Source of the DNA: a virus
Virus record (IMG/VR): IMGVR_UViG_3300028283_000188
Coordinates: 1 to 20,829 of that record
Direction: 5' to 3' (one strand)
Length of the DNA stretch: 20,829 bases
Shown here: piece by piece, positions 2,944 through 20,721 of the stretch
Position numbering within the stretch: position 1 is the stretch's first letter
Layout of the letters: the number at the start of each line of letters is the position of its first letter
The notes under the pieces: model-generated
The model's database searches: none
What the model saw: only the letters and a program-made list of their open reading frames with translations
Told to the model about the DNA's origin: nothing
Made by a program: the position numbers and the translations under genes

Positions 2944-2948
2944 ACGAC

Positions 2949-2999
2949 TTACCCGATCAAGGTATCGTTCGTATCGAAAATTATACCAGATACAGGTAT
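2949..2999 (-). promoter_or_regulatory. Operator pair 1 with -10 element
   Basis: Two 17-bp palindromes of the form (A/T)TACC-N7-GGTAT lie at 2949-2965 (TTACCCGATCAAGGTAT) and 2983-2999 (ATACCAGATACAGGTAT), with starts 34 bp apart. Read leftward, the distal copy runs into TATAAT (2980-2985), so a repressor on it would cover the -10. The proximal copy would fall just after the start of transcription. No good -35 is visible. The same arrangement recurs at 13878-13928 and 20671-20721. Confidence 0.7.
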
Positions 3000-3084
3000 T
3001 TTTGTGTTGATATCAGATCGGATTACCGATTACGTAATTCCGCACAAGTAATCAAACTCCACCAGATCAGAAAGCCATCACATC

Positions 3085-3312
3085 ATGCCCACCAACAGCA
3101 ACCACAACCAAACGGCTGGGAAGCCGACCGTCCACGACTTCAAGAATGGCCAGAAGGTCCAGTTCAAAGCCGGCCCGCAGTCCAAGACCCTGTCCATCGG
3201 CAGGGTGACTGGCTATGGCATGAACGGCAGCGCCGTTTCGGTGGTCCACGTCGAAGCCAACGGCCGGACCTACAAGAAGTATCCGGTCCAGCTCACCAAG
3301 ATCGCGGCCTAA
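3085..3312 (+). CDS. Small hypothetical protein, probably an SH3-like beta barrel
   Basis: 75 aa on the plus strand and the first gene of the rightward cassette. An Asn/Gln-rich N-terminal tail of ~15 residues is followed by a strand-rich region (FKNGQKVQFKAG, then LSIGRVTGYG, then SVVHVEANGRTYKKYPVQL). The alternation of strands and glycine turns resembles small SH3/KOW-like barrels, but I cannot assign a family. The ribosome site is weak (AGAAAG about 12 nt upstream), and no in-frame start lies further up. It is 36 nt upstream of the MucR/Ros-like gene and probably on the same transcript. Function unknown. Confidence 0.7.
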   Translation: MPTNSNHNQTAGKPTVHDFKNGQKVQFKAGPQSKTLSIGRVTGYGMNGSAVSVVHVEANGRTYKKYPVQLTKIAA

Positions 3313-3348
3313 CCATCTCCGTCGACCAACATCACAGGAGACAGCACT

Positions 3349-3741
3349 ATGCCGCCCGAATACACCATCGACCGGACCGTGGCCATCGCGGTTGCTTACC
3401 TCACCAAGAACGCCGTCGCCATCTCCGACATTTCGGCTCTGCTCAAGAGCATCCATTCCGCTCTGGAAAATCTCAACCTGCCCGCGCCGGCCCCGGAGGT
3501 CGTGCTGGCGCCGGCCGTCCCGGTCAAGAAGTCGGTGACACCCGACTACATCGTCTGCCTGGAAGACGGCAAGAAGCTGAAGATGCTCAAGCGGCATTTG
3601 CGGACCTCCTACGGTCTGTCGCCGGACGAATACCGCGCCAAGTGGGGGCTTCCGTCCGACTACCCGATGGTGGCGCTGAACTACGCCAACCAGCGGTCGG
3701 CGCTGGCCGTGAAGATCGGCCTGGGTAAGCGCGCCGAGTAG
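3349..3741 (+). CDS. MucR/Ros-family transcriptional regulator
   Basis: 130 aa, with a strong AGGAGA ribosome site. Residues 1-60 are a helical N-terminal region (the oligomerisation part in this family) ending in an Ala/Pro linker. Residues ~62-127 carry the Ros/MucR signature: VTPDYIVCLEDGKKLK, LKRHLRT, SPDEYRAKWGLPSDYPMVA and LGKRAE. The family are zinc-finger DNA-binding regulators typical of Alphaproteobacteria. The zinc site looks degenerate: C70-x2-D73-x9-H83, and the residues expected to supply the last histidine are Ser87-Tyr88. Zinc-less MucR/Ros homologues with C-x2-D are known, so DNA binding need not be lost. The gene diverges from the leftward gene at 2926 across an operator pair and is a candidate regulator of that unit, though the palindromes are not a typical MucR target. 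Confidence 0.9.
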   Translation: MPPEYTIDRTVAIAVAYLTKNAVAISDISALLKSIHSALENLNLPAPAPEVVLAPAVPVKKSVTPDYIVCLEDGKKLKMLKRHLRTSYGLSPDEYRAKWGLPSDYPMVALNYANQRSALAVKIGLGKRAE

Positions 3742-3752
3742 CGCTTACCTCT

Positions 3753-3828
3753 GCCGCTGTAGCTCAACTGGTAGAGCATCTGATCTGTAATCAGGCGGTT
3801 CTTGGTTCGATTCCGAGCAGCGGCACCA
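3753..3828 (+). tRNA. tRNA-Thr (anticodon TGT), atypical C33
   Basis: 76 nt fold as a full cloverleaf. The acceptor stem GCCGCTG/CAGCGGC pairs perfectly. The D stem is GCTC/GAGC. The anticodon stem TCTGA/TCAGG has one G-U pair and a 7-nt loop, TCTGTAA. The T arm is CTTGG-TTCGATT-CCGAG, and ACCA is encoded at the end. The anticodon at loop positions 34-36 is TGT, which reads ACA (Thr). Position 33 is C rather than the near-universal U. A one-base shift would give GTA (Tyr), but the stem would then not pair and the long variable arm of bacterial tRNA-Tyr is absent. It is transcribed with the MucR/Ros-like gene, 11 nt after its stop codon. Confidence 0.92.
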
Positions 3829-3834
3829 GATATA

Positions 3835-3870
3835 GGGGCGTAGTCAATCGACTACGCCTCTTTTCTTTTT
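3835..3870 (+). terminator. Rho-independent terminator of the rightward cassette
   Basis: A 9-bp perfect stem, GGCGTAGTC/GACTACGCC (3837-3845 with 3850-3858), with an AATC loop. It is extended by a G-T and a G-C pair and followed by TTTTCTTTTT. It ends the transcript carrying the two plus-strand genes and the tRNA. The stop codon of the convergent Mu F-like gene lies in the loop. On the minus strand there is no T-run, so it should act mainly rightward. Confidence 0.9.
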
Positions 3871-5058
3871 CTGATCTGCGATGTATTTCGCTGTGCCCTT
3901 GGCGACCAAGTCCTTCAGGTACGCATCGAACTCTTTGCTTACACCCGGCGGCGGCTCACTCGGGCCGGTGCCCCACCCGCCGCGGCAGTGCGGGTGCTGG
4001 AGCCCGGCGGCAATCCACCACATCTCGTGCGGCTCGCGCGGTATCAGGATACCGTCAACCTTTTTCATCGGCGATGCCGACCTGCCGATGTTGGTCTTTC
4101 CCACCCACACCTCGTTGTCGCCGTCCTTGTTCGGCTTGGCCGGATCAACGACGGTGACGATCTTGCCCTGGATCGACTGGCACCACGGGCAGGCGCCGCG
4201 GTATGCCTCCAGGCGGACCAGCTTGGCGCCGTGCTTGCAGGCAGCAACTTGACCCTGCGCCATGGCCTCTCCGGCCTCGGTAATGGCGATGCGCCGCATG
4301 TCGCGGTTCAGCGCGCCGAACTCTGAGATCAGCCGCGTCTCCAGGTGCCCGGTGGTGCCTTCCTTTTGCCCGAGCACGATGGCCTGGACGTGCTCCAGGA
4401 TGACGCCCTTGAGCTTGTGGCGCATGTCGCCAGACAGGGCCGTGATATTCTCGGCGACGCGCTCATGAGCCACCCGCAAGATGGCTTCCTCGACCGGCGT
4501 CAGCACCTTGGGCGGCACGTCGGCGAACTTGGTCGGGACCAGCTCCACCACCGCGGCGGTCACATCGTCAGGCAGGCGGTCCCTCCGGGCATCGAGATTG
4601 AGTTGCAGCTTGCCAGCCATGGCCGACCGCACCGTCAGATACTCGGCCTCTGACCGGATCACGCCGTCCGGCAGGTAGCGCTGGATCAGGTAGTCCACCA
4701 ACAGCAGCCAGTCATCGAGCGTGTAGCTGGCCGGCGCCTTGCTCTCCAGCTCGTGCAGCGCGGCCCTGAACCCGTCGTCGAACCATCGCTCCCACGGCAC
4801 CGCCGATTTGAGCATGATGGTGCCGATTGGCTCGCCGCCCAGCACCCGCGTCAACACCGCCTGTATCTTCTCCAGGATTCCGCTCATGTCACCGGTCCAC
4901 GCCTCGACCGGGTCACGTAACCATGGATTCTCGTGCGGCGTCCAGATCGACTCACCGGTGCCAGCCGGGTCTTCCGCCAGGGCCTTGTGCATCTCTTCCA
5001 GGCCGTGGTCGCAATGGCAGCTCGCCACGCCGCCCAGGTCGATAAGGACCGAATCCAT
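3844..5058 (-). CDS. Mu gpF/SPP1 gp7-like head morphogenesis protein
   Basis: 404 aa from the ATG at 5058, 2 nt after the stop of the zeta-domain gene and preceded by AAAGGG. The N-terminal two thirds are helical. The C-terminal part carries the Mu F-type signature: RRIAITEAGEAMAQGQ (255-270), GACPWCQSIQGK (288-299) with Cys290 and Cys293, then PHEMWW (343-348) and HPHCRGGW (355-362), a likely metal site. In this family the protein is a minor capsid or head-assembly factor bound near the portal and injected with DNA in some phages. The N-terminus has an extra CHCDH motif (14-18). Position downstream of the portal agrees. The gene converges with the plus-strand cassette and ends inside its terminator. 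Confidence 0.85.
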   Translation of the reverse strand: MDSVLIDLGGVASCHCDHGLEEMHKALAEDPAGTGESIWTPHENPWLRDPVEAWTGDMSGILEKIQAVLTRVLGGEPIGTIMLKSAVPWERWFDDGFRAALHELESKAPASYTLDDWLLLVDYLIQRYLPDGVIRSEAEYLTVRSAMAGKLQLNLDARRDRLPDDVTAAVVELVPTKFADVPPKVLTPVEEAILRVAHERVAENITALSGDMRHKLKGVILEHVQAIVLGQKEGTTGHLETRLISEFGALNRDMRRIAITEAGEAMAQGQVAACKHGAKLVRLEAYRGACPWCQSIQGKIVTVVDPAKPNKDGDNEVWVGKTNIGRSASPMKKVDGILIPREPHEMWWIAAGLQHPHCRGGWGTGPSEPPPGVSKEFDAYLKDLVAKGTAKYIADQKKKRGVVD

Positions 5059-5060
5059 GG

Positions 5061-7242: not shown

Positions 7243-7246
7243 GTAC

Positions 7247-9010: not shown

Positions 9011-9117
9011 GTCGCAAGCATGGCGTCACGACCGATCAGCAGGCGGTACACCGCCACCACAACGCCGAGCATGGCGATTGCGATGACGGCGCAGACGTGA
9101 TCGAAGGCATCACACAT
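8911..9117 (-). CDS. Small membrane peptide overlapping the portal start
   Basis: 68 aa from an ATG 7 nt after the clamp-gene stop, with a GGTGTGAG ribosome-site-like stretch. Residues ~8-30 (CAVIAIAMLGVVVAVYRLLIG) form a transmembrane helix. The C-terminal half is read out of frame within the first 100 nt of the portal gene and looks low-quality (basic and Ser-rich). The short membrane part may be the functional piece, or translation through it may simply open the hairpin at the portal start. The RDAMLATWQS stretch over the hairpin has a counterpart (RDAMIRTWQS, then stop) in the untranslated leader of the gene at 2926. Confidence 0.5.
   Translation of the reverse strand: MCDAFDHVCAVIAIAMLGVVVAVYRLLIGRDAMLATWQSSTIPALWPLTRAHRKVSGRTRYRSSSART
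9002..9027 (-). promoter_or_regulatory. Hairpin containing the portal start codon
   Basis: GCCATG (9006-9011) pairs with CATGGC (9019-9024) around a 7-nt loop (TCGCAAG on the plus strand), extended by GAC/GTC (9002-9004 with 9025-9027) across one bulge. The stem and the bulge are identical to those at 2918-2943 while the loop differs, so the conserved part is the helix around the start codon. No Shine-Dalgarno sequence precedes the ATG at 9010. Confidence 0.5.
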
Positions 9118-9124
9118 GCTGTAC

Positions 9125-10228
9125 TCACACCTTCATCGGCATAAGCACGCTCAGGAAGTCGGCCCGGCCCGGATCAGTGATGATAGATGGGGCTCCAGCG
9201 TCGAGTAGCAGGAACCGGGCAACATCGCCCTTGATCTGGCGCAGTAGATCGGAAAGATATTTCGAGTTGTAACCGATTTCGAGATCATGTCCCGTGTAAC
9301 CGATGTCGATTTCCTCGCTCGACGTACCGGTTTCTGCGCCTTGCGCAGACAACGTCATGAGCCCCTTGGTGAATGATAGCTTAATGGCGCGTGTTTTTTC
9401 CGTCGCTACCACGATTACACGATCAACGGCGCGGTCAATTTCTGATGATTTGACCTCGATAACCACGTTATTACCAGTCGGAATCACGCGCTGATAATCT
9501 GGGAACGTGCCGTCGATCAGCTTGCTTGTCACCGTCACATCGCCGATCCCGAATCCGATTTTGGTTTCAGACATTGTGACCGACACATGGTCAGTCCGCT
9601 TGTCGACCAGCTTGCGCACCTCGGTAAACGTCTTGCGCGGAATGATGACGCCAGTGATGTCTTGAGCCCCCGCAGGCAACGCAATCTCGCAGCGGGCCAG
9701 CCGGTGGCCGTCCGTGCTGACAGAGCGCAGGTGGGCGCCGTGTCGGTGCAAATAGATTCCGTTGAGATAGTAGCGGGTTTCCTCGGTCGACACCGCGAAG
9801 GCCACGCTATCGATCAGCGTCCGCAGGTCCGCCGCGGCAATCTCGAAATTGTGGGCGAGCTTTCCAGACATGACGGCTGGAAAGTCCTCGGCCGACAGCA
9901 CCGCCAGTTTGAACCGGGACCGGCCGCACTTGATCGCGATCGAGCAGGCATCCTTGGCCAGCTCAATCTCGACCGACTCACCGTCCAATTTGGACATGAT
10001 TTCATACAGCAGGACCGCCGAAACGGTGGTGGTTCCGGGCGTGATGACGATGGCCGGAACGCGCTCGGTGACCTCGATGTCAAGGTCAGTGCCGCGTAGC
10101 TCCAGCAGGCCATTGCTGGCCGACAGCAGGACGTTCGCCAGCACCGGGATCGTGGTCCGCCGCTCGATGATGCTCTGGACATGGGATAAGGCGCGCAGAA
10201 GGGTGCCGCGCTCGATGGTGATTTTCAT
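9125..10228 (-). CDS. dnaN: DNA polymerase III beta subunit (sliding clamp)
   Basis: 367 aa from the ATG at 10228 (MKITIERGTLLRAL), close to the 366 aa of the E. coli clamp. The ATG overlaps the methyltransferase stop as ATGA. The three repeated clamp domains are present. Family landmarks include IPVLANVLL, LRGTDLDIEV, TRYYLNGIYLH, VSTDGHRLARCE, IIPRKTFTEV, LIDGTFPDYQRVIP, and the C-terminal end FLSVLMPMKV (compare the MPMRL end of bacterial clamps, part of the peptide-binding pocket). The dimer forms a ring on DNA and tethers polymerases and other proteins through QxxLF-type peptides. Finding it between a methyltransferase and the portal is unusual. Several other proteins here carry such peptides, including the protein encoded immediately upstream. 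Confidence 0.97.
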   Translation of the reverse strand: MKITIERGTLLRALSHVQSIIERRTTIPVLANVLLSASNGLLELRGTDLDIEVTERVPAIVITPGTTTVSAVLLYEIMSKLDGESVEIELAKDACSIAIKCGRSRFKLAVLSAEDFPAVMSGKLAHNFEIAAADLRTLIDSVAFAVSTEETRYYLNGIYLHRHGAHLRSVSTDGHRLARCEIALPAGAQDITGVIIPRKTFTEVRKLVDKRTDHVSVTMSETKIGFGIGDVTVTSKLIDGTFPDYQRVIPTGNNVVIEVKSSEIDRAVDRVIVVATEKTRAIKLSFTKGLMTLSAQGAETGTSSEEIDIGYTGHDLEIGYNSKYLSDLLRQIKGDVARFLLLDAGAPSIITDPGRADFLSVLMPMKV

Positions 10229-10929
10229 GGCTGGGCCTGTTGAAAGAGTTCTTGTTGGGTAGTTGGCGCCTTCGGCTTCCGCCGGCTTGGGTGCGCTAGT
10301 GCCTTGGTGGCAGCGAAGTCGGCCGCCCGCAGCCGGCATGGCATGGTCAGCGGGCCGGTAGCGCGATGGTCCCAGACGAACCAAGTGAACGACATCATAC
10401 CGCCGCCGATGCCATGCTTTTCGTCATTGCCGCGCAAGCATTGCAGACGATCAGCGAACGGATAGAACCGAGACGGCGGGAATTCATCCATCACAGGTGA
10501 ACGATCCATGCTCTCAAAGAATGTCGTCTTGAGCAGCATGGCAACTTTTCCGCCCGCTTCCTTTGTCAGTTCCAGCGCTTTGAGCACGAACGGAACAGCC
10601 AATTTGAACGGTGGATTGGTGATGATGTTATCTACCTGATATGTGTTCATCAGGAAGTCTATCCGTGGTGCTCCATAACCACGGTCGACCAAGTCGCTTG
10701 ACCACACGTTATAGCCAAGGTCGATCAGCACCTTGCTAATATGGCCCATACCGCAGGCTGGTTCGGCGATCGATCCATAGAATTTCTCGACCGACAGCAG
10801 GGCTAACGTGCCCTCCGTCGGCGTCGAATAGAAGTCGTCGCGGTCACGGGCCGATGGGTCGCCCGCCACCATCTGGCGACGGGTCCGCGATGCCTTGCTG
10901 GCCGCCATGGTGGCGAGCGGGTTGGTCAT
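10225..10929 (-). CDS. SAM-dependent DNA methyltransferase, C-terminal clamp-binding motif
   Basis: 234 aa from the ATG at 10929, overlapping the NrdJ stop as TGATG. Residues 56-62 (EPACGMG) are the SAM-binding motif I. Residues 104-108 (TNPPF) are motif IV of amino-methyltransferases acting on adenine or cytosine; NPPF favours N6-adenine. DFYSTPTEGTLALL (32-45) and SSDLVDRGYG (77-86) match small phage methyltransferases of this kind. I see no target-recognition domain and no restriction enzyme nearby, so it looks solitary. The tail has QQELF (225-229), a clamp-binding form, only a few codons before the clamp gene begins. Likely role: modification of phage DNA against host restriction. Specificity cannot be read from the sequence. 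Confidence 0.88.
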   Translation of the reverse strand: MTNPLATMAASKASRTRRQMVAGDPSARDRDDFYSTPTEGTLALLSVEKFYGSIAEPACGMGHISKVLIDLGYNVWSSDLVDRGYGAPRIDFLMNTYQVDNIITNPPFKLAVPFVLKALELTKEAGGKVAMLLKTTFFESMDRSPVMDEFPPSRFYPFADRLQCLRGNDEKHGIGGGMMSFTWFVWDHRATGPLTMPCRLRAADFAATKALAHPSRRKPKAPTTQQELFQQAQP

Positions 10930-13367
10930 CAGCCGCACTCACTGTACGAGCACGACAGGCACTTCCTACAGCCGTCCGTCCGGATAAGCGCGGGGGCGCC
11001 ACACTTCGGGCACGTCTCGCCGAGCGTGACTTCCTTGACCGGCGCACTCGATGCCTTGACCGTCTCATCCTCGATCATGCCGAGCCAGGCCATGTGCCGG
11101 CGCAGCACGCCAGCAATCAGCGCGACCACGCCGGGCACGTACTTTCCGTTGACCCATGCCCCTTGGGCCGACTGGACGCCCTCCAGGTCTTCCACCATGA
11201 ACAGAGGGTGTTCAGCCCGGCGCAGGATCGCCGACATCAGCAGCGTCAGGCCAGATAGCAGTTCGGCATGGGCTGCGGACCGAGATGCGACGAAAATCTC
11301 GAACGGCCGGCGGGGGCCGCCTTCGTCTGTGTCGTTGATCGTGACGTAGAAGCTGTCATCGGTCGCCGGCCACTTGAGCTTGTAGGTGGTGCCGCGCAGA
11401 ACCTCGGGCCGCTTGGGCAGCGGAGAGACAATCTCTCGGGCAACGAACGTCGTCGTGAGCTTTTCGATTTCCTCGGGCGACAGGGTTTCAAGGAACGACG
11501 GCTCCTGCGCGATGATGCCCGGTAGCAGAACTAACGTGCCCTTGTCCGCGTCCCACTGATCCTTGAACGCCTGGACCTGATCAGCGGTCAGGTGGTCGGT
11601 GTTTACGATCGTCGATGGCTGCTTGGTGGGCTTATCCACCGTCAGCACAGCGCCGCGTGTGCCATTGGGCCGGTAGGTGGTTGCGCCCTTGCAGCCAAGT
11701 TCATAGGCTCGCCGGAAGACGTTGGCATAATCGGCGTAGGTAATGTCTGGTGGGCAGTTGATCGTCTTGGAAATGCTGGCGTCGACGTACTTCTGGCACA
11801 CCGCCTGCATTTTCAGGTGGTCTTCGACGGTCAGTTCCAGCGCCGTCGCCATGTAACCCGGCAGGGAATCGGTGGGAGCCGTCAGCGGGTCTAGACTGTT
11901 GACATCGCAATATGCTTCCCAGCCAGCATCGAGCACGGAGAAGTCACGGAAAGTCCCATCGTGGTTATCGACCTTACGGTTAAATCTCCATGCAAACGAC
12001 GGCTCAAGGCCAGACGAGACGTTGTTGTAATAGATCGCCGTTGTCCCAGTCGGCGCGATAGTCAGCAGGCATCCGTTGCGAATGCCATGGTCTTCGATTA
12101 ACCTTTGCAGGTATTGCGGCAGGTCTTTGACATTCCAGCTCGACAGAAATCCAGCCGCGTCATAGGCCGGAAAACTTCCGCGCTCGGCCGACAGATTGAT
12201 TGATGTCGCATAGGCTGCAATCTTTATCGCCTCCATAATGGCGCCCGCTGCCGCAATAGAGTCCTTGCTACCATAGCGAATACCAAGCATCTGGAGAGCA
12301 TTGCCCAGGCCCATGATACCCAGGCCAATCCGGCGTTTTGCCAGCCCTTCGGCTTCCTGTTCCGGGACCGGCCATGATGTGCGATCCAGTACGTTGTCGA
12401 GGAACCGGACGCCGAGTTGCGTTACCTTTTTCAGCCGGTCAAAGTCAAAGTAGGCATCTTTGGTGAATGGATTGCGTACCAGCACCGCCAGATTGACGCA
12501 GCCAAGGTTACATGCTCCGTTGGGCGGCAAAGGTTGCTCTCCACACGGGTTAGTCGCGCGGATGTCCTCGCAGTAATGCAAGTTGTTGCGCTTGTTTACT
12601 TGATCAATAAAGATCACACCCGGCTCGGAGTAGTCATAGCTGTTGCGGGTGATGGCTTCCCACAGATCGCGAGCCTTGACAACTTGATAGGTATACCAGG
12701 GTTTCCCGTTGTTCAGGATCAGGGTGAATGGCTCCTGATCAGCAGGTGGAACATCGAAACCGAGATACCACTGATCATCGGCATCGACCGCCTTCATCAG
12801 CGCGTCACTGACTAGCACCGACAGATTGAAGTTGGTAAGCCGGCCCGTTTCGCGCTTGGCCGTGATGAAATCAAAGATGTCCGGGTGGGTGTCGCACATA
12901 GTCGCCATCATGGCGCCGCGACGGCTACCGCCCGACAGGATGGTGGCGCAGGTAGCATTCCACACGTCCATGAACGACAGCGGGCCGCTGGACACCGAGC
13001 CGACGCCCTTGACCACCGCGCCCTTGGGCCGCAGCGTCGAGAAATCCTGGCCGATGCCGCCGCCGGTCTGCATGGTCAGAGCGGCGCGCGTGTTGGCCGC
13101 CATGATGCCGGGCATGCTGTCTTCGATGGTGTCGTTGACGAAGCAGTTGATCATGGTGCTGCGCAGACCGGTGCCGGCGCTGGCATGGATGCGCCCGCCA
13201 GGGCAGAACTCATTCGTGAGCATGGCGCCTAGAACAGCTTCCATGAAGCCGGGTTCCGGGTCGCCAGCGCATACGGCTTTCGCCACCCGAGTTTTGCTTA
13301 CGCCCGGACCTTCCTCGTCTCCGTGCCGGTACTTTTCACGCCAGATGGTGTCGACGATCGGCTGCAT
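10929..13367 (-). CDS. nrdJ: Class II (adenosylcobalamin-dependent) ribonucleotide reductase
   Basis: 812 aa from the ATG at 13367; an in-frame GTG at 13376 overlapping the upstream stop as GTGA is the alternative. Motifs in order: MINCFVND with the first redox Cys, TGGGIGQDFS, SGGSRRGAMMA, the NPCGEQ active site (273-278) followed by PPNGACNLGCVNL, and LTIAPTGTTA. A TSCPD-like domain (KWPATDDSFYVTIND, GLTLLMSAILRR) follows, then a terminal Cys cluster (CPKCGAP, CRKCLSC, ECG). This is the NrdJ layout. The enzyme makes deoxyribonucleotides with coenzyme B12 and works with or without oxygen, so it supplies the phage with DNA precursors. No nrdB-like or activase gene is nearby, as expected for class II. 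It is first in a run with the methyltransferase and clamp. Confidence 0.97.
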   Translation of the reverse strand: MQPIVDTIWREKYRHGDEEGPGVSKTRVAKAVCAGDPEPGFMEAVLGAMLTNEFCPGGRIHASAGTGLRSTMINCFVNDTIEDSMPGIMAANTRAALTMQTGGGIGQDFSTLRPKGAVVKGVGSVSSGPLSFMDVWNATCATILSGGSRRGAMMATMCDTHPDIFDFITAKRETGRLTNFNLSVLVSDALMKAVDADDQWYLGFDVPPADQEPFTLILNNGKPWYTYQVVKARDLWEAITRNSYDYSEPGVIFIDQVNKRNNLHYCEDIRATNPCGEQPLPPNGACNLGCVNLAVLVRNPFTKDAYFDFDRLKKVTQLGVRFLDNVLDRTSWPVPEQEAEGLAKRRIGLGIMGLGNALQMLGIRYGSKDSIAAAGAIMEAIKIAAYATSINLSAERGSFPAYDAAGFLSSWNVKDLPQYLQRLIEDHGIRNGCLLTIAPTGTTAIYYNNVSSGLEPSFAWRFNRKVDNHDGTFRDFSVLDAGWEAYCDVNSLDPLTAPTDSLPGYMATALELTVEDHLKMQAVCQKYVDASISKTINCPPDITYADYANVFRRAYELGCKGATTYRPNGTRGAVLTVDKPTKQPSTIVNTDHLTADQVQAFKDQWDADKGTLVLLPGIIAQEPSFLETLSPEEIEKLTTTFVAREIVSPLPKRPEVLRGTTYKLKWPATDDSFYVTINDTDEGGPRRPFEIFVASRSAAHAELLSGLTLLMSAILRRAEHPLFMVEDLEGVQSAQGAWVNGKYVPGVVALIAGVLRRHMAWLGMIEDETVKASSAPVKEVTLGETCPKCGAPALIRTDGCRKCLSCSYSECG

Positions 13368-13372
13368 AATTC

Positions 13373-13576
13373 TCACGCGATATGGTAAGGGATGCCGGTC
13401 ATGCGGTCCGCTGCGGCGCGCAACGCCATGGCCTTTTCGGTGGCGGTCAGTCCGGGGTGGTAGCGGGCCGCCGCGCCCACCAGGAAGTTGACCATCATCT
13501 CGATGGCCACGATCCTGGTGGTTTCCAGCATGGTCTGATCCGGCGCCGGGCGGATGACGGCGAAGTCAGAAGTCAT
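13373..13576 (-). CDS. Small hypothetical protein
   Basis: 67 aa from the ATG at 13576, overlapping the upstream gene by 11 nt; a GTG at 13585 is a possible alternative. The sequence is helical (TMLETTRIVAIEMMVNFLVG, then ATEKAMALRAAADRMTG) and has no Cys or recognisable motif. It lies just upstream of nrdJ and ends 5 nt before the ATG chosen for that gene, so the two are co-translated. Function unknown. Confidence 0.65.
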   Translation of the reverse strand: MTSDFAVIRPAPDQTMLETTRIVAIEMMVNFLVGAAARYHPGLTATEKAMALRAAADRMTGIPYHIA

Positions 13577-13829
13577 ACCGAGCACCGCCCTGGAACGGCT
13601 TCAGTCGGGCTCCAGCCGGCATGGTGAACGGCCTGGACTTGACACAGTCGTTTTCGATCCGCAGCCGGGCATTGTCGGCCTCGATGTCGTCGACCTGCAG
13701 CGCGATGTCGCGCAGGCTCAGGGCCAGCTCGTAGCGGTCCGGGACCGGGCTTCCGGCCTTCGCCATGGTCAGGGGATTGACCAGGGCCGCGGCGAATTCG
13801 TTGATACCGTCGCTCAGGGATTTGCTCAT
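13566..13829 (-). CDS. Small hypothetical protein, first gene of the nrdJ-portal unit
   Basis: 87 aa. The ATG at 13829 has an excellent ribosome site, GGAGG with 5 nt spacing. The middle is a predicted helix or coiled coil (YELALSLRDIALQVDDIEAD, then NARLRIEND), and the C-terminus is Gly/Pro/Phe-rich. No family recognised. It is the first gene downstream of operator pair 2, so it should be the most directly controlled gene of this unit. Confidence 0.75.
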   Translation of the reverse strand: MSKSLSDGINEFAAALVNPLTMAKAGSPVPDRYELALSLRDIALQVDDIEADNARLRIENDCVKSRPFTMPAGARLKPFQGGARYDF

Positions 13830-13877
13830 TTTGGCCTCCGTCGGGTGCCCTTGGTAGGCGCCGCGTTGGCCGATCTT

Positions 13878-13928
13878 ATACCCGATCCGGGTTTGTTATG
13901 CCAGAGCCATTATACCGGGATCAGGTAT
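13878..13928 (-). promoter_or_regulatory. Operator pair 2 with -10 element
   Basis: Palindromes lie at 13878-13894 (ATACCCGATCCGGGTTT) and 13912-13928 (ATACCGGGATCAGGTAT), 34 bp apart start to start. Read leftward, the distal copy runs into TATAAT (13909-13914) and the proximal copy into TATAAG (13875-13880). The region lies between the terL stop, 1 nt from the distal copy, and the gene starting at 13829. No convincing -35 is seen for the distal -10. CTGGCA lies 18 nt upstream of the proximal one. Confidence 0.75.
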
Positions 13929-13929
13929 T

Positions 13930-15912
13930 TTATGAGAAAAGCACACAGCCAGGGTCACGCGGCGCCACGGTCAGGCCGCGGGCTGTGCAGTGGCCATCCT
14001 CAAACGACGAGCACCGCCCGCAGGTTCCGGCCGGAATGTCGTCGATCATGCGCAGCACCGCCGGAGGTAGGCCGGAATTCGCGGCGTCGATCTGTTCGGC
14101 GCGCGGCGATAGCTTTACCTCCTCCGGCATGATGAAGCTGGAAGTACCGTGGTTGCGCGACCAAGCAATATCACACAGCATGTTGGCGTAGCTGTAATGA
14201 GGATCAATGCCGACCTTTACCACCTTTCGGCGGAATTTCTTTTGCTCATCGTCCTTGATAACAACAAGAGCAGTCTTTGTGAAGTGTAACCACACCTCGT
14301 CACGCAGGATATTGACGCGCTTTGTTTGACCTTTGACTTTGATGTCTTGAGCTAGTCCGTTGGGATCAGGGAATAGGCATTGCTTGTTGATAAAGCGCGC
14401 CATAGACACCGACATGCACTTGAACTGGTCTAGCGTCACGGTATAGCGGTCTCTTGCCTCGTCAGCGCTCTTGCGCTCGGCTTTAGTCGGCTGTGCGTCG
14501 CCCCAGCGCAGCATTTCCTCGGCGATGTCAGAGTATCCAGCCAGAAATACCTTGCCACGATGGCGCTGTGAGAAGCGCTTTGCATCGTTGTAGTTGGGCA
14601 ATGTCTCAAGCACGCAAATATCAACGCCGTATTGAACCATCAAGTCATCGCAACGCGAGAACGGATCGGCGTCATAGATGCTTTCGACATGGATGATTGC
14701 TTGCCGTCCGTCACGAAGTCTTTCTTTCACTACCACACAGTTGAAAGCGCCCATTTGATCGATACCCATGACGGTGCCGCGCGCCTTGGCCTTCCAGACA
14801 ACGCCGGCTCGGGCTCCTTCGACCGCGCACGCCTCGAGGATTGCGAGCGTGATCGGGACTTGGCTCGGGTCCGTCCACGGCTTGCCGAGTTTGCGATTCC
14901 AGAAATTTTGAAGGTCTTGAGCACTCTGATAGCTCTCGATGATTTCACGGGCCGATACCGTCGGCGACAGGGTTTGTGGGAAGTGAAACGAGGGGTTTTT
15001 CGCTCCAGGATTTGACGCCACCCAACGCCCGGCTTGCGGATTCTCGATGTACGCTCGGCAGATCGGGCAGACGTATATGTAATCGTGAAGCGGTGCTGAT
15101 TGCCACTCGGACCCATCGTTGAATTGGATGCAGTCAGGGAAGCATTCGTCGAGAATGCACCCGTCGTCACAGTCGCAGTCTGAGTGAAACCGCCGCTGGT
15201 CTCCCTGCTTGTATAAGAAATCAATGTCAGCTCCCGGCCATTTAGCTGTTGAGCATGCGAAGAAAAACCTCAAATCACTGGCAGACATGCGCTCGCGAAT
15301 GCGTTCAATGTCATCCACGAGCATGCTTTGCACTTCGTCGGCAATCACCATGCCGAGCGGGAAGCTCTCCGTGAAGGCGCTGCCGCTGGTCCACAGGAAC
15401 AACACCTCGGACTTGCCGAGTTGCCGCGTCAGGATGTTGCCCTCGTTTCCGTTGTTGGCCTCGAGCAGCGCCCGGTGTGCCAGCGGCACGGTACGAACGG
15501 TGGGCATGAACCGGTTGGCCGACACGTAGCCGGCGAGATTTCGGTCAGGGTAGTAGACGCCGACCTTGACTGGGGTGTGCTTGAGCGCGACGTAGAGCTG
15601 GAGCAGGAAGGTCAGCACGGTTAGGCCGGTCTGTGCGCCCTTCATGATCGCCATGCTCTGGCCATAGCCGTCGGCCTTGTGCGTCGGGATCGCCTCATAG
15701 ATCGCCCGCAGCGCCGGCCGGTTGTCCAGGCGGAACGGCTGGCCATCAACCTCGAGCCCATGCTCGGCGAGCGTTTCCACCCACGCCAGGAACGACATAT
15801 CCGCCGGGATGCCCTCCGGGTCGATGCCATGCGAACGATTGACCGACGCGAAGATGCGGTGGAACCCAGCCGTAAGCTGCGAAGGGTATTCGCCAAGTTT
15901 AAGAGGCGTCAT
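13930..15912 (-). CDS. terL: Terminase large subunit (GpA-like)
   Basis: 660 aa from the ATG at 15912, overlapping the upstream stop as ATGA, with GGGGA as ribosome site. It has KGAQTGLT (91-98, the GpA-type Walker A variant), VIADE (189-193, Walker B), FFFACSTAKWPG (217-227, coupling region), CPIC (282-285, the zinc knuckle of GpA terminases), and GIDQMGAFNCVVV (383-395), the start of the RNase H-like nuclease with its first acidic residue. The protein cuts concatemers and pumps DNA into the procapsid. Two oddities: a Cys-rich insertion (C246, C248, C252, C257, C261), and a C-terminal CGRCSSF-GHC-DPGC cluster in the last ~30 residues that could bind metal. The gene follows a small-terminase candidate. 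Confidence 0.95.
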   Translation of the reverse strand: MTPLKLGEYPSQLTAGFHRIFASVNRSHGIDPEGIPADMSFLAWVETLAEHGLEVDGQPFRLDNRPALRAIYEAIPTHKADGYGQSMAIMKGAQTGLTVLTFLLQLYVALKHTPVKVGVYYPDRNLAGYVSANRFMPTVRTVPLAHRALLEANNGNEGNILTRQLGKSEVLFLWTSGSAFTESFPLGMVIADEVQSMLVDDIERIRERMSASDLRFFFACSTAKWPGADIDFLYKQGDQRRFHSDCDCDDGCILDECFPDCIQFNDGSEWQSAPLHDYIYVCPICRAYIENPQAGRWVASNPGAKNPSFHFPQTLSPTVSAREIIESYQSAQDLQNFWNRKLGKPWTDPSQVPITLAILEACAVEGARAGVVWKAKARGTVMGIDQMGAFNCVVVKERLRDGRQAIIHVESIYDADPFSRCDDLMVQYGVDICVLETLPNYNDAKRFSQRHRGKVFLAGYSDIAEEMLRWGDAQPTKAERKSADEARDRYTVTLDQFKCMSVSMARFINKQCLFPDPNGLAQDIKVKGQTKRVNILRDEVWLHFTKTALVVIKDDEQKKFRRKVVKVGIDPHYSYANMLCDIAWSRNHGTSSFIMPEEVKLSPRAEQIDAANSGLPPAVLRMIDDIPAGTCGRCSSFEDGHCTARGLTVAPRDPGCVLFS

Positions 15913-16613
15913 AATCCCCACTCGGCTTGCACTCGGCGGATACGATCCAAGATGCGTGTTGTTACCTCGAACGACTCCTTTTCGATTTCCTCAATAATGA
16001 TCGTAAAAAGCATGTTGATGTTGCCCTGGACCGCATACTTTTCTTGCATGTCGATCATTTTAAGCGTCATCTTGGCAAGCTGGTCAACAACTTGCAACAG
16101 CATTTTCGGATTACGGATTTTCCCGCTGCCGTCTTGAGTATGGCAGTATTCAATCATCGACTGGTTCAGGTCGATGGCTTGTTGGATTTTCTCCATCAGC
16201 GGAATACCGAAGCCGACTACCTGGACACGCCGCGGGGCCGGCTCCAGTAGCACGATTTCCTGCAGTACCGCCTCGACCGCTTCCAGGCCCGGCGGCTCGG
16301 GCTCGGGTGGGGCCGGCTCAGGATCAGGTTCCACCACCGGCCATGACGACACAGGGTGCTGCACTTCCGCCAGGACGAATGGCGGCGGTGGCGGCGGCTT
16401 GCGGTCTACCTCATCCCGAAAGAATGGAACAGTCCCGCCCTTACGCGCGTCCTCAATCTTCTTCGCGATGCGGTAGCCAGTCGAAAAGGTAATGCCGCGA
16501 GGCACCCATGATTCGACAAACGACCGTCTCTCGAAGACTCCAAGCTCTTCCATCTTCGCCGTGTACTCGGCAACGAACTGCATCTTGAGACTGTGTTTTT
16601 CGGACTTGCTCAC
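15909..16613 (-). CDS. Putative terminase small subunit
   Basis: 234 aa from a GTG at 16613 that overlaps the upstream stop as GTGA, with GGAGG 11 nt upstream. Residues ~10-55 contain an HTH-like region (FVAEYTAKMEELGVFERRSF, then GITFSTGYRIAKKI), which would bind DNA. A long Pro/Glu-rich linker follows, including six consecutive prolines. The C-terminal ~100 residues are helical (PLMEKIQQAIDLNQSMIEYC, QVVDQLAKMTLKMIDMQ), as expected for an oligomerising part. Direct overlap with terL and this HTH-linker-helix plan fit a small terminase. No specific family signature was recognised. Confidence 0.65.
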   Translation of the reverse strand: MSKSEKHSLKMQFVAEYTAKMEELGVFERRSFVESWVPRGITFSTGYRIAKKIEDARKGGTVPFFRDEVDRKPPPPPPFVLAEVQHPVSSWPVVEPDPEPAPPEPEPPGLEAVEAVLQEIVLLEPAPRRVQVVGFGIPLMEKIQQAIDLNQSMIEYCHTQDGSGKIRNPKMLLQVVDQLAKMTLKMIDMQEKYAVQGNINMLFTIIIEEIEKESFEVTTRILDRIRRVQAEWGL

Positions 16614-17274: not shown

Positions 17275-17275
17275 G

Positions 17276-17309
17276 GTTATGCCCGGTAATTAGAGTTATA
17301 GGGCATAAC
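17276..17309. repeat. 9-bp perfect inverted repeat at a gene junction
   Basis: GTTATGCCC (17276-17284) and GGGCATAAC (17301-17309) flank a 16-nt loop. The element covers the end of the 85-aa gene and lies just before the ATG at 17274. No T-run follows, so it is not a typical terminator. It could fold in mRNA and affect initiation of the membrane-peptide gene. Confidence 0.5.
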
Positions 17310-17534: not shown

Positions 17535-17872
17535 GACTGCACCACCTTGGGCTGGTCCAGGCGAATGCCCACCACGGTAGCGGTCCATAGATCGGATTCA
17601 GCACTAAAGGAATGGTCCAGCGCCAGCGGAACCACGGCCGCCTGCCCGAGCGCGAGCGCGGTGGTGGCAGCTTCCCCGAGCTGCATCGCCACGGCAATGT
17701 GCGGAGCCAGGGCGGTCAGGTCCGCCTGGATGCCGCGGATTTCGTCCTCATAGTCGCTGGCGATCTTGCGCAGCGCTGCATTTTCGCGTTCGAGCTTCGC
17801 AATCCGGCCCTCGACCAAATTACGCCCGTCCTGCCCGATCAACTGACCCATGCCTACTACCCTTTCCATCAT
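17531..17872 (-). CDS. Small hypothetical protein with N-terminal coiled coil
   Basis: 113 aa from the ATG at 17872, which overlaps a preceding stop as ATGA and has GGGGG upstream; ATGs at 17869 and 17851 are in frame. Residues ~22-55 form a coiled coil (GRIAKLERENAALRKIASDY, EDEIRGIQADL). The rest is an Ala/Leu-rich region (AMQLGEAATTALALGQAAVV) ending in a strand-rich stretch (WTATVVGIRL). No family recognised. It is part of the overlapped chain upstream of the terminase genes. Confidence 0.65.
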   Translation of the reverse strand: MMERVVGMGQLIGQDGRNLVEGRIAKLERENAALRKIASDYEDEIRGIQADLTALAPHIAVAMQLGEAATTALALGQAAVVPLALDHSFSAESDLWTATVVGIRLDQPKVVQS

Positions 17873-17967
17873 GACCCCCAGCCTTGCAGGGCTTCTATCG
17901 CGGATTTCGCCTTGGCCCGGTACTGGTCCGGGAACGTGTCCTTGGTCAGAACGGATTCTGACAGCAT
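17869..17967 (-). CDS. Very small hypothetical protein (32 aa)
   Basis: 32 aa from the ATG at 17967 (MLSESVLTKDTFPDQYRAKA, ending ALQGWGS). Its stop overlaps the next ATG as ATGA, the junction used throughout this operon. Otherwise this would be an unexplained gap between genes. The ribosome site is weak (GTGG), while an AAGG lies better placed for a non-ATG start nine bases upstream. Function unknown. Confidence 0.4.
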   Translation of the reverse strand: MLSESVLTKDTFPDQYRAKAKSAIEALQGWGS

Positions 17968-17985
17968 GTCAAACCACAGGTCGCC

Positions 17986-18084
17986 TTAGACCGGGTGTTC
18001 TGACCGGTAGATGGCACGAGCCACGGTGTCGAGTTGCGCCAAGGTCAGTCCGTGGTTCATCAGCCAATGGCTGTGATCGATCAC
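17986..18084 (-). CDS. Very small hypothetical protein (32 aa)
   Basis: 32 aa from a GTG at 18084 that overlaps the upstream zinc-ribbon stop as GTGA, with AGG upstream. The sequence (IDHSHWLMNHGLTLAQLDTV, then ARAIYRSEHPV) is a plausible helical peptide. A longer frame through the same stop, starting at 18345, lies over the zinc-ribbon gene and is rejected. Function unknown. Confidence 0.5.
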   Translation of the reverse strand: MIDHSHWLMNHGLTLAQLDTVARAIYRSEHPV

Positions 18085-18389
18085 GGTTGCACCTGCGCAG
18101 AAATCGGCAGGCCGTTGAACAACACAACGATTTGAGACGGATTGAACGGGTCCGGGCCGCACTCGAATGGTGACCGGCTGCCCTTGCGCTGGCCCTCGCG
18201 CCGAATGCCGCAGCCGCAGATAGCCTCTACCGGTGCGCCTGGAATGGTAGTGAGATTGCACCCCATGCACCGATATGCCTGCCCGTCGGCGCGCTGCAGA
18301 ATCCGGCTCCGGCACCAACGGCAGCAGTGATCGGTGATGGTCCAATATTCGGTCAGGTCGACCGGCCGCGGAAACTTTCCTGCGCTCAT
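18081..18389 (-). CDS. Small zinc-ribbon protein
   Basis: 102 aa from the ATG at 18389, overlapping the preceding stop as ATGA. It has CCRWC (22-26), CMGC (41-44), CGCG (58-61) and FEC (75-77), so at least two Cys pairs form a zinc ribbon and a third pair may bind another ion. The C-terminus (FNPSQIVVLFNGLPISAQVQ) is strand-rich. Such ribbons bind nucleic acid or serve as structural adaptors. No named family. It sits directly after another Cys-rich gene. Confidence 0.75.
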   Translation of the reverse strand: MSAGKFPRPVDLTEYWTITDHCCRWCRSRILQRADGQAYRCMGCNLTTIPGAPVEAICGCGIRREGQRKGSRSPFECGPDPFNPSQIVVLFNGLPISAQVQP

Positions 18390-18964
18390 AGCCGTAGCTC
18401 CAACTGCCTGGAAATCTGAACCTGCTTACCGTTCCAAGAGCCGACCACGAAGCCAGCCACAGACTCGTATGGCACCCTGCCGAAACCGATCGCGCCGTCG
18501 GCTTGTCTGGCGAGCGACACCATGGCCTCGATCGGGTCCACCACGTCGTGGACCACCTCGACGCGGTGGCCGGTAGCCGTGATCACCGATATGGCTTCAG
18601 CGTGCAGTGCAATGCGGGGCCGGGTGCCCTTCCGGTTCCGGCCAAGCCGGAATTCGCGGGTGCGGTTGTAGCAGCTCACGCAGAGATGTCCGTGGATAAT
18701 GCGGCTAGACAGGCGCAGGCACCGCGGGCAGACCTTACGCCACTCATCCCGCACCACCTGTCGAGCGCTGGCGGCTGTGTCTAGTACTACAACAGCAGTC
18801 CCGGCAGCATTAGCCGCGCCTATGGCGCAAGTCCGACAGTGGAATCGATTACTCCACGGCTGCCGAGTCTGCGCATTTTCCATACGATGGAACTTCGAGC
18901 ACGCCGCTGTTGTCAGCGACATTGCATATTTATCACACCGGAACAGGTCGAGCTGCTGTGTCAT
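18386..18964 (-). CDS. Zinc-binding protein with N-terminal clamp-binding motif
   Basis: 192 aa from the ATG at 18964; a TTG at 18997 is in frame but lies inside a tandem repeat and is rejected. It begins MTQQLDLF, where QLDLF (4-8) is the consensus beta-clamp-binding pentapeptide. Cys/His pairs follow: CSKFH and FHCRTC, which may form one zinc site, and CPRC with CVSC (about residues 78-98), which form a second ribbon. A basic stretch (RLGRNRKGTRPR) and a mixed alpha/beta domain (AISVITATGHRVEVVHDVVD) follow. Zinc ribbons plus basic residues suggest nucleic-acid binding, recruited by the phage or host clamp. Enzymatic role unknown. Confidence 0.72.
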   Translation of the reverse strand: MTQQLDLFRCDKYAMSLTTAACSKFHRMENAQTRQPWSNRFHCRTCAIGAANAAGTAVVVLDTAASARQVVRDEWRKVCPRCLRLSSRIIHGHLCVSCYNRTREFRLGRNRKGTRPRIALHAEAISVITATGHRVEVVHDVVDPIEAMVSLARQADGAIGFGRVPYESVAGFVVGSWNGKQVQISRQLELRL

Positions 18965-18976
18965 CTGACAAAAAAC

Positions 18977-19020
18977 CGTTCTCAGTGCCGTTCTCAATCG
19001 TTCTCAGTGCCGTTCTCATG
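18977..19020. repeat. 22-bp tandem repeat, two copies (four CGTTCTCA units)
   Basis: Copies at 18977-18998 and 18999-19020 differ at the last two bases only. Each holds two CGTTCTCA units 12 bp apart, giving four units at spacings of 12, 10 and 12 bp. An inverted TATGAGAATC lies just beyond (19031-19040). The repeats sit in the only ~100-bp gap of this part, upstream of the leftward gene at 18964. They could be operator sites or iterons; no clear promoter hexamers could be fixed. Confidence 0.7.
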
Positions 19021-19065
19021 ACGTAAAAATTATGAGAATCAGGCAGCGTGGTACCCTAATACCGC

Positions 19066-19533
19066 TCAAGCGTAGCCTGCGCCATCGATCACCAGATGCA
19101 GGATGGCCAGCGCGTCCGCCTCGTTGTCGTCGCCCGGCCGGTGCCCTTTGGCTTCCATGGCCGCGATCATGGCCGGTTTGCCGGCGTTGCCCTTGCCGGT
19201 GGCGTGTTTCTTGATGGTGCCCACCGGAACACCGGAGTAGGGAACCTTCTTCGTCTCGCACCACGCCGTCAGGCTTGCCAGGAAGCCTCCGTAGGCGTGT
19301 GCGGCATCTACCCCGGCATGGCGGCGCACTTCCTCGAAACGCAGCTCCATGATGCCCCCCGCGAGCAGGAACACCTCATCGAGCCAGCGGGTGAATCGCA
19401 GGTAGCGCATGCCGCCACCCTCGAACCGGGCTGGCCTGAATTCGAGGGTGCCGGACGTGATCCTGCCTTCCGTCGAGATCATGGCGAACCCGGTCTTGGT
19501 GCCCAGGTCCAAGGCCATCACACGGGCGGTCAT
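19066..19533 (-). CDS. ruvC: RuvC-like Holliday-junction resolvase
   Basis: 155 aa from the ATG at 19533, overlapping the preceding stop as ATGA; an in-frame upstream start lacks support. It has MALDLGTKTGFA (6-17) with the first catalytic Asp (D9), ELRFEEV (63-69) with the second acidic residue, VPVGTIKKHATGKGNAGKPA (102-121), and DDNEADALAI (135-144) with the last Asp residues. This order is the RuvC-type RNase H fold. Length is near the usual ~170. The role would be resolving four-way or branched DNA before packaging. It lies in the gene order leading to the terminase genes, which fits trimming of replication intermediates. Confidence 0.92.
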   Translation of the reverse strand: MTARVMALDLGTKTGFAMISTEGRITSGTLEFRPARFEGGGMRYLRFTRWLDEVFLLAGGIMELRFEEVRRHAGVDAAHAYGGFLASLTAWCETKKVPYSGVPVGTIKKHATGKGNAGKPAMIAAMEAKGHRPGDDNEADALAILHLVIDGAGYA

Positions 19534-19640
19534 GAGAACATCAGATAGATCAAGGCACTGACCATCATGGCTGCGATCAAAGCGCAAATGGCGCCCACCA
19601 CCCATTGCTCACGATGGGTCAGGACCGGTTGAATATCCAT
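19530..19640 (-). CDS. Small single-span membrane peptide (36 aa)
   Basis: 36 aa from the ATG at 19640, which shares a base with the upstream stop (TGATG); its own stop overlaps the ruvC start as ATGA. Residues ~13-35 (WVVGAICALIAAMMVSALIY) form a transmembrane helix after a short polar N-terminus (MDIQPVLTHREQ). Both junctions match the pattern of the operon, which supports translation. Function unknown. Confidence 0.65.
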   Translation of the reverse strand: MDIQPVLTHREQWVVGAICALIAAMMVSALIYLMFS

Positions 19641-19828
19641 CAATGCACCATTTGGTTTGGCCGCGGCAGCAGCGCCGCAAGGTTTGACAGCGCAACGGCA
19701 TGAGCTTCAGCCAGTTGTTCAACCAGCGTTTCCAAACGTCTCACGTCCTCGATGGCTGCGATCATCTCGATCGGATCGACGATCGAATGCTCAAACATCG
19801 ACTTCAACCGACGCGATGGTTTGATCAT
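19640..19828 (-). CDS. Small hypothetical helical protein
   Basis: 62 aa from the ATG at 19828, overlapping the preceding stop as ATGA; an in-frame GTG at 19840 is the alternative. It has a basic N-terminus (MIKPSRRLKSMFEHS) and a heptad-like helix (IEDVRRLETLVEQLAEAHAV). No family recognised. Its length and coiled coil resemble other small early phage proteins. Confidence 0.6.
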   Translation of the reverse strand: MIKPSRRLKSMFEHSIVDPIEMIAAIEDVRRLETLVEQLAEAHAVALSNLAALLPRPNQMVH

Positions 19829-20145
19829 GAGAACCACCACATCAGAATGCCGCCAACCACGACGCCGAGAAGTCCGAGTGACATTCCGCCGAGCCAGATC
19901 ATTTCGATCCAGGTCAGTGGACTGTTGTTCAACGTCTCATATGAGAATTCATCATCGTCTAACATTTGCCACCATTCTTTCTCATGTCGATCTTTTGTCG
20001 ATCCGTCATCGGGAATTGCAACGCCGCGAAGCCAGAGCCAACCATCACCATGGTCGGCTGAACCTGTGTCTCGATCTGTCGCGCGAATTCTCCGCCGATG
20101 CGGGTGCAGATCGTTTGAGCCAGCCGATTCATCATTCCAGGTCAT
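19825..20145 (-). CDS. Small C-terminal membrane protein (start uncertain)
   Basis: 106 aa from the ATG at 20145. The C-terminal ~46 residues (from MLDDDEF, ATG at 19965) look genuine and contain a transmembrane helix (WLGGMSLGLLGVVVGGILMW). The first ~60 residues are His/Arg/Asp-rich and have a lower third-position GC than neighbours. A competing frame over the same DNA (19959-20132) fits codon use better. So either this is one 106-aa protein, or the real gene is 19825-19965, preceded by a separate 57-aa gene. The ATGA overlap at its end supports the C-terminal part only. Confidence 0.5.
   Translation of the reverse strand: MTWNDESAGSNDLHPHRRRIRATDRDTGSADHGDGWLWLRGVAIPDDGSTKDRHEKEWWQMLDDDEFSYETLNNSPLTWIEMIWLGGMSLGLLGVVVGGILMWWFS
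19959..20132 (-). CDS. Alternative small gene (57 aa) overlapping the frame above
   Basis: The ATG at 20132 shares a base with the upstream stop (TGATG). The frame (MNRLAQTICTRIGGEFARQI, ETQVQPTMVMVGSGFAALQF, ending KNGGKC) ends 7 nt after the ATG at 19965 of the membrane part. By my count third-position GC is about two thirds, against under one half for the competing frame. The overlapped junctions match the operon habit. I cannot decide between the two readings without homologues. Confidence 0.4.
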   Translation of the reverse strand: MNRLAQTICTRIGGEFARQIETQVQPTMVMVGSGFAALQFPMTDRQKIDMRKNGGKC

Positions 20146-20278
20146 TTCCACACGGCTCACAGCCGGCGTCCTGGACGATCACGGGATGCACAGGCAGGCC
20201 CGACAGTGCCATGTGCAAGCCGCCCGCCACCGCCAGGGCGGCATAGGCGGACATGACGATCAGCAGCACGGTCTTCAT
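20132..20278 (-). CDS. Small secreted or membrane peptide with CxxC
   Basis: 48 aa from the ATG at 20278, overlapping the preceding stop as ATGA. Residues 1-27 look like a signal peptide or membrane anchor (MKTVLLIVMSAYAALAVAGG). The short remainder ends in AGCEPCGNDLE, with a CxxC. It could be exported and disulfide-bonded, or metal-binding at the membrane. Function unknown. Part of the small-gene run after operator pair 3. Confidence 0.6.
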   Translation of the reverse strand: MKTVLLIVMSAYAALAVAGGLHMALSGLPVHPVIVQDAGCEPCGNDLE

Positions 20279-20445
20279 GCCTTAGCACCGATGCAGGCCC
20301 GGCATTCGATGTGCTGGCACTTTTCGACGGCCCGTCCGACTGAGATACCGCAGGCCGGTGGTGTGACCGGGCAGAGGTAGTTTTCCGACGGCATACTGTG
20401 CGCCGCCTTAGCCGGCCGCGGCTCAATCATCCATCCACCCGTCAT
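20275..20445 (-). CDS. Small Cys-rich hypothetical protein
   Basis: 56 aa from the ATG at 20445, overlapping the preceding stop as ATGA. Cys residues in CPVTPPAC and CQHIECRAC suggest a small metal-binding fold. The N-terminus (MTGGWMIEPRPAKAAHSM) is disordered-looking. No family recognised. A longer in-frame start (20517) would lie inside the upstream gene. Confidence 0.6.
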   Translation of the reverse strand: MTGGWMIEPRPAKAAHSMPSENYLCPVTPPACGISVGRAVEKCQHIECRACIGAKA

Positions 20446-20672
20446 GTCGCAATTCCTTCGTGCAAACATTTGTCGTGAATCCACACCCCGTTCGACAACG
20501 GGACCATGGTGCCCCACGTCTGGCCTTCCAGCGCTTGTCCGCAGGCCGTGCAGCGCTGCGGTCCGTGGAACCGGCCGTCCGCTGCGGTATCGACGATCTG
20601 GGAGTGGCTGGCAGTAGCGCGGCGGGCCATGAGGGCGGTCACCAGGGCAATGGGCTCGGTTAAGAGTTGCAT
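20442..20672 (-). CDS. Small zinc-finger-like protein, first gene after operator pair 3
   Basis: 76 aa from the ATG at 20672. An in-frame ATG at 20630 with GGTGA upstream would give 62 aa and would leave the proximal operator outside the gene, so it may be the real start. The C-terminal half has CTACG, then WIHDKCLHEG, a Cys2-(His/Cys) arrangement typical of small phage zinc proteins, with LEGQTWGTMV between. The first half is helical. Role unknown. It heads the leftward run of overlapped small genes. Confidence 0.6.
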   Translation of the reverse strand: MQLLTEPIALVTALMARRATASHSQIVDTAADGRFHGPQRCTACGQALEGQTWGTMVPLSNGVWIHDKCLHEGIAT

Positions 20673-20721
20673 ACCCGATTTAGGTATGCTGGTCAAGCGG
20701 CGTTATACCCTGATCGGGTAA
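20671..20721 (-). promoter_or_regulatory. Operator pair 3 with -10 element
   Basis: Palindromes lie at 20671-20687 (ATACCCGATTTAGGTAT) and 20705-20721 (ATACCCTGATCGGGTAA), 34 bp apart start to start. Read leftward, the distal copy runs into TATAAC (20702-20707). TTGACC (20691-20696) lies between the two and sits 17 nt from TATGCA, a weaker second promoter option. The sites overlap the 3' end of the incomplete gene at the right edge and the start of the next gene. Confidence 0.72.

Follow-up and report, generated by a model that had tools for sequence, protein, structure and literature searches.

The DNA analysed here, referred to throughout as the window, is the complete IMG/VR entry IMGVR_UViG_3300028283_000188 (20,829 bases), a partial viral genome in which a 17-bp palindrome, ATACC-N7-GGTAT, recurs in closely spaced pairs ahead of groups of leftward genes. 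The window is a fragment of a phage of roughly 90 kb; by terminase and portal it is related to a set of phages of ~90 kb that comprises Bordetella PHB04, Pseudomonas Dolphis, Jeremy, Touem01, ST4, Mecenats66 and others. Pfam assigns InPase and DarA_C domains to unit 1; unit 2 yields DnaN together with a large ribonucleotide reductase, and unit 3 a phage metallopeptidase and a terminase of the GpA type. A portal protein and a MucR/Ros-like gene were recognised as well. Judged by order and strand, the genes listed here would form three transcription units, and these are given together with the putative operators and the -10-like hexamers:

3..1157, minus strand: unit 1, gene 2, DarA C-terminal domain protein (Pfam PF18789, 2.5e-8), continuing past the end of the record
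1160..2926, minus strand: unit 1, gene 1, inorganic pyrophosphatase-domain polyvalent protein (Pfam InPase PF18823, 1.9e-43)
2949..2965, minus strand: pair 1, putative proximal operator, ATACCTTGATCGGGTAA as read on the minus strand
2980..2985, minus strand: pair 1, -10-like TATAAT, preceded by TGG (extended -10 form)
2983..2999, minus strand: pair 1, putative distal operator, ATACCTGTATCTGGTAT, continuing into TATAAT
9125..13829, minus strand: unit 2, two small open reading frames (ORFs), large ribonucleotide reductase (10929-13376), DNA methyltransferase-like gene, DnaN clamp
13878..13894, minus strand: pair 2, putative proximal operator, AAACCCGGATCGGGTAT
13909..13914, minus strand: pair 2, -10-like TATAAT, with TTCTCA upstream and an 18-nt spacer
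13912..13928, minus strand: pair 2, putative distal operator, ATACCTGATCCCGGTAT, its end adjoining the terminase stop codon
13930..20696, minus strand: unit 3, small genes, RuvC-like gene, metallopeptidase-like gene, 234-aa ORF, terminase large subunit (13930-15921)
20671..20687, minus strand: pair 3, putative proximal operator, ATACCTAAATCGGGTAT, overlapping an ATG at which the first small gene may start
20702..20707, minus strand: pair 3, -10-like TATAAC
20705..20721, minus strand: pair 3, putative distal operator, TTACCCGATCAGGGTAT, continuing into TATAAC

A preliminary description of this DNA had reported six copies of the palindrome in three pairs, 34 bp apart from start to start, and all six were recovered at their positions with the spacing exact. 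The copies at 2983, 13912 and 20671 are perfect, whereas the other three, which had been given as the same sequence, carry one mismatch among the ten arm positions (2949, TTACC..GGTAT; 13878, ATACC..GGTTT; 20705, ATACC..GGTAA). These six are the only sites in the window with at least nine of ten arm positions matched, while 200 dinucleotide shuffles gave a mean of 0.13 such sites (largest 1) and zero 34-bp pairs. When neither arms nor spacing were prescribed, the real window again gave the three pairs (ATACC, 34) as its best family, as compared with at most one pair in 60 shuffles. Random scatter over coding DNA, which would have told against a shared regulatory role, was not what was found; there are exactly three 34-bp pairs, each heading a leftward unit, and none elsewhere. 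Pair 1 stands ahead of the InPase/DarA unit and pair 3 ahead of the small-gene/terminase unit, while pair 2 falls in the stretch that separates the terminase stop from the ribonucleotide reductase unit.

Each site consists of a strong half, with 8-9 of 9 positions matching ATACCCGAT, and a weak half with 5-6 of 9, an imbalance often seen in repressor operators. In pairs 2 and 3 the strong halves face outward, in keeping with the earlier proposal that each pair is itself inverted, but in pair 1 the distal copy does not. The GATC in the core, described before as offset to opposite sides in proximal and distal copies, is so placed in four copies and is missing from 2983 and 20671.

All three distal copies continue as GGTATAA(T/C) on the minus strand, so that each runs into its -10 hexamer at the same fixed offset, as had been noted. 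TATAAT occurs only twice in the window on both strands together, at pairs 1 and 2, where 2.7 occurrences are expected from base composition; the hexamer is thus not enriched, yet it is confined to operator pairs. A consensus -35 upstream of the three hexamers was found at pair 2 only (TTCTCA), with none at pairs 1 and 3. If the last T of the -10 is numbered -7, the distal site extends from about -26 to -10 relative to the predicted start and the proximal site from about +9 to +25; the first estimate for the latter was about +8 to +24.

Comparison with related phages was complicated by the fact that unrestricted palindrome statistics in GC-rich coding DNA are swamped by codon bias; later scans covered non-coding stretches, which in the large relative records were defined by a crude longest-ORF rule. 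The nearest relatives found, whose portal proteins are ~55-66% identical, have different operator sequences, in pairs mostly 22-26 bp apart. In relative G004, TTCTGC-N7-GCAGAA occurs at 22 sites with no more than two mismatches, as opposed to 0-12 for shuffled arms, and these sites, paired ~22-24 bp apart, include the gap between divergent HTH_3 genes for CI-like and Cro-like proteins (83609) and the portal promoter (41590/41643). Relative G010 has 14 sites of TTACTCA-N4-TGAGTAA, mostly at promoters and in pairs 22-26 bp apart, versus 0-8 for shuffled arms. In G007, a TTAGCG-N3-CGCTAA pair 24 bp apart lies beside a helix-turn-helix (HTH)/S24 repressor gene and runs into a -10 (TAATATAAT), and a second pair, 25 bp apart, stands at 14977/15002. 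GGTAG-N7-CTACC sites are present in the non-coding DNA of G001. Two further candidates, TTTTC-N4-GAAAA in G012 and AATCA-N4-TGATT in G021, formed no convincing regulon, and no clear operator family was seen in the CI/Cro region of G011. At least three relatives therefore have scattered palindromes of their own, which in two of them (G004 and G007) are found also in a gap next to a repressor gene or separating two such genes, and the presence of scattered operators with private sequences is supported, as judged from these sequences, in some members of the family. The 34-bp spacing of the window exceeds the 24 bp of the relatives by about one helical turn (10 bp), so that the rotational relation of the two sites stays similar, which may matter.

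Taken together, the six sites probably serve as operators for a single dimeric helix-turn-helix protein whose gene lies elsewhere in the same, probably temperate, phage; most likely this protein is the lysogeny repressor of the phage (CI/Cro or C1-like). Repression is the most likely mode of action, since the -10 hexamer is overlapped by the distal site and the predicted transcript start by the proximal one, and the phage's own CI/Cro-like protein is the leading candidate because similar sites adjoin HTH repressor genes in two relatives. We infer the following course of binding and repression. In a lysogen, the distal site would hold a dimer that covers the -10 of each early promoter together with its spacer, while a second dimer on the proximal site, possibly bound cooperatively with the first, would cover the first transcribed bases, so that both RNA polymerase binding and early elongation would be blocked. 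All three units (polyvalent-protein, nucleotide/replication and small-gene/terminase) would thereby be shut off together; at pair 1, binding would also cover the upstream side of an adjoining late promoter, and loss of the repressor would release all three units. The earlier proposal of one regulator acting on three units thus stands as the best reading, with support from the dispersed operators of relatives, although its "nrdJ-portal unit" was drawn too broadly, as described below.

Several observations weigh against such a repressor. HTH_3 and S24 searches of the 20.8-kb record were empty, so that no repressor gene was found there. No relative was found with the operator sequence of the window or with its 34-bp spacing, and the portal relatives are without ATACC pairs; an exact IMG/VR scan for two TACC-N7-GGTA at 34 bp gave 10 matches, none recognised as a relative, several of which carry repeated palindromes of their own. 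With -35 boxes either weak or absent, it may be that transcription does not begin at these hexamers. Among the relatives, about half of the weaker matches in G004 are in coding DNA, the palindrome count in G007 (7) is not above its shuffled-arm controls (0-14), so that this case rests on position, and several relatives scanned in their non-coding DNA gave no clear scattered palindrome. The operator motifs of the relatives also came from palindrome searching and hence carry a built-in selection.

The same anatomy would serve a phage-encoded regulator of lytic timing acting at another moment, either as an early-to-middle switch or as a Cro-like shut-off. The units hold ribonucleotide reductase, DnaN and terminase, which goes beyond immediate-early genes, weak -35 boxes would suit regulated promoters, and the operators of G004 are flanked by CI-like and Cro-like proteins, so both could share sites; however, positions at the -10 and at +9 to +25 suit blocking over activation and the family occurs as prophages, and we regard lytic timing as a rather unlikely explanation. 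Recognition of the sites by an XRE protein of host or accessory origin, for instance a HigA-type antitoxin, is less probable still. An exact ATACC-N7-GGTAT with a TATAGG -10 at the same offset does occur at a HigB/HigA-like gene pair of Microvirga lupini (G021:C1, ~713594-713610), and makes it plausible that members of the XRE family can bind a sequence of this kind, but this is a single site in ~100 kb with no 34-bp pair. A scan of 385 alphaproteobacterial genomes likewise gave no 34-bp operator pair with a -10, a null result that is also to be expected if the site is phage-specific.

Two features beside pair 1 bear on a further candidate:

3349-3741, plus strand: MucR/Ros zinc-finger regulator (Pfam ROS_MUCR, 5.1e-44)
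3753-3828: tRNA-Thr, beside the MucR/Ros gene

The MucR/Ros-like protein is the sole transcription-factor-like gene product recognised in the window and its gene is divergent from pair 1, both of which speak for it as the regulator. MucR/Ros proteins bind long AT-rich stretches, however, unlike the CC/GG-anchored 17-bp palindromes seen here, and no MucR gene lies near pairs 2 and 3, making this assignment very unlikely. The least credible of the alternatives is that the palindromes act as RNA structures (terminators) or as replication or partition repeats; weak stem matches were found at 13880-13892 and 20706-20720 on the plus strand, but these stems are five pairs long and on the strand opposite the units, and the copies stand at promoters in strict pairs and do not form a single cluster.

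A second element, GTCGTGAC, occurs just upstream of structural-gene start codons and is also present in L015-L041, G002-G011 and G021. Its two copies in the window are as follows:

2941..2948, minus strand: GTCGTGAC late-promoter-like element of the InPase/polyvalent unit, with ATG 2926 exactly at motif +22 (predicted +1)
9025..9032, minus strand: GTCGTGAC late-promoter-like element of the portal gene, with ATG 9010 exactly at motif +22

The extended form GTCGTGAC-N3-A-N3-T is found in 3 to 17 copies in 13 of the 14 other relative DNA sets (one including host DNA), twice in the window and not at all in relative G001, while permuted-core controls gave means of 0.07-0.33. In position profiles, A stands at +11 and T at +15, the same distance apart as the conserved A and T in a -10 hexamer, and ATG most often begins at +22. 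The messenger would be leaderless, because this usual ATG position would be the transcription start, and the motif looks like a phage-specific late promoter. Among the titles listed for literature on GTCGTGAC with phage and promoter, nothing was related, and promoters are not mentioned in the one paper found on this phage group. With its own element at 9025-9032, the portal gene is set apart from the unit in which it had been placed with nrdJ; the polyvalent unit likewise has its own element at 2941-2948, which the proximal operator of pair 1 (2949) abuts with no gap. In some relatives, operators stand just upstream of the GTCGTGAC promoters of the portal and other units, and in G010 operator copies lie upstream of three such promoters. 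It is conceivable, though we put it forward tentatively, that the pair 1 repressor sits between two kinds of promoter, with its distal site on an early -10 and its proximal site touching a late promoter that gives a leaderless messenger, so that one protein would silence both early and late entry into unit 1, in an arrangement that recurs with swapped operators in some relatives. A cluster of inverted GGTATC/GATACC copies lies ahead of a GTCGTGAC promoter in L019 (~19940-20302). Two near-identical promoter stretches with TTGACAT..TAGACT were seen in the viral relative L015 (1356-1470 and 2062-2236), and these are likely duplicated early promoters.

As regards the remaining gene content, the large ribonucleotide reductase gene (10929-13376, minus strand), whose product was named class II NrdJ in the preliminary description, belongs to the unit that lies between the terminase and portal genes. 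In five genomes with related prophages, only distant (~30%) matches to it were seen elsewhere, and it may therefore have been acquired by this phage. MucR/Ros proteins are typical of alphaproteobacteria, and since a gene of this kind is present in the window the host is probably alphaproteobacterial; MucR homologues in phages are scarce (6 records). An RNA family search of the window returned tRNA only. As a single-sequence query in IMG/VR, the terminase retrieved no relative, whereas the portal query succeeded, and the portal profile also matches 14 bacterial contigs, including those of Microvirga lupini (1.44 Mb), Oxalobacter (1.8 Mb) and Methylovulum (1.2 Mb). Because relatives lie inside bacterial contigs, some of them over 1 Mb, the family is probably temperate, a view that depends on these related prophages. 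Within the window, GTTCTCA is repeated four times between two leftward genes (18978, 18990, 19000 and 19012; 18978-19018) and occurs again on the minus strand at 19533 and 19828, near gene starts. An inverted repeat, TTATGCCC ... GGGCATAA, flanks TATAAC on the minus strand at 17278-17309.

These observations provide a testable regulatory plan for a large and mostly uncharacterised group of ~90-kb, probably temperate phages with alpha-, beta- and gammaproteobacterial hosts, in which scattered repressor sites, apparently varying in sequence from phage to phage, would stand beside a late promoter motif common to nearly all. For metagenomic phages with no repressor on the contig, sites of this kind could serve in predicting immunity groups, promoters and inducible genes.

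In phage lambda, the CI/Cro operators are 17-bp imperfect dyads at the divergent cI and cro promoters, with a spacing of ~23-24 bp. The sites of the window are also 17-bp imperfect dyads with a strong and a weak half, paired over a predicted promoter, and the 22-26 bp pairs of the relatives resemble the spacing in lambda OR. The lambda operators, however, lie in one immunity region, whereas the window has pairs at three distant units with a spacing of 34 bp and contains no cI or cro. Phage phiC31 has conserved inverted repeats in repeated copies over its genome. Repeated operator copies across the genome are likewise known as the stoperators of mycobacteriophages (PMC9283540), which differ in being asymmetric and in acting on elongation inside units, while the sites of the window are paired at unit heads.

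The same operator standing at three separate unit heads of one phage record would place the window among the dispersed-operator systems, with a plan like that of P1. The P1 C1 repressor has dispersed operators (22 sites) with an asymmetric 17-bp consensus, ATTGCTCTAATAAATTT (PMC8546580), and the 11 late promoters of the phage carry a 9-bp inverted repeat to which the activator Lpa binds (PMC10695390). The likeness lies in the scattered 17-bp sites, which in P1, a temperate myovirus of ~90 kb, stand at the promoters of many units, and DarA and separate activator-type late promoters are also found in P1. The two differ in that the P1 operator is asymmetric (ATTGCTCTAATAAATTT), while the sites of the window are dyads of another sequence in fixed 34-bp pairs, and in that no C1 homologue was identified for the window phage; its late-promoter element GTCGTGAC is not that of P1 and no activator was identified, although the plan is P1-like. 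The best reading is of a dispersed operator set that resembles P1 C1 in plan but has a sequence of its own and a spacing, fixed at 34 bp, that is unusual.

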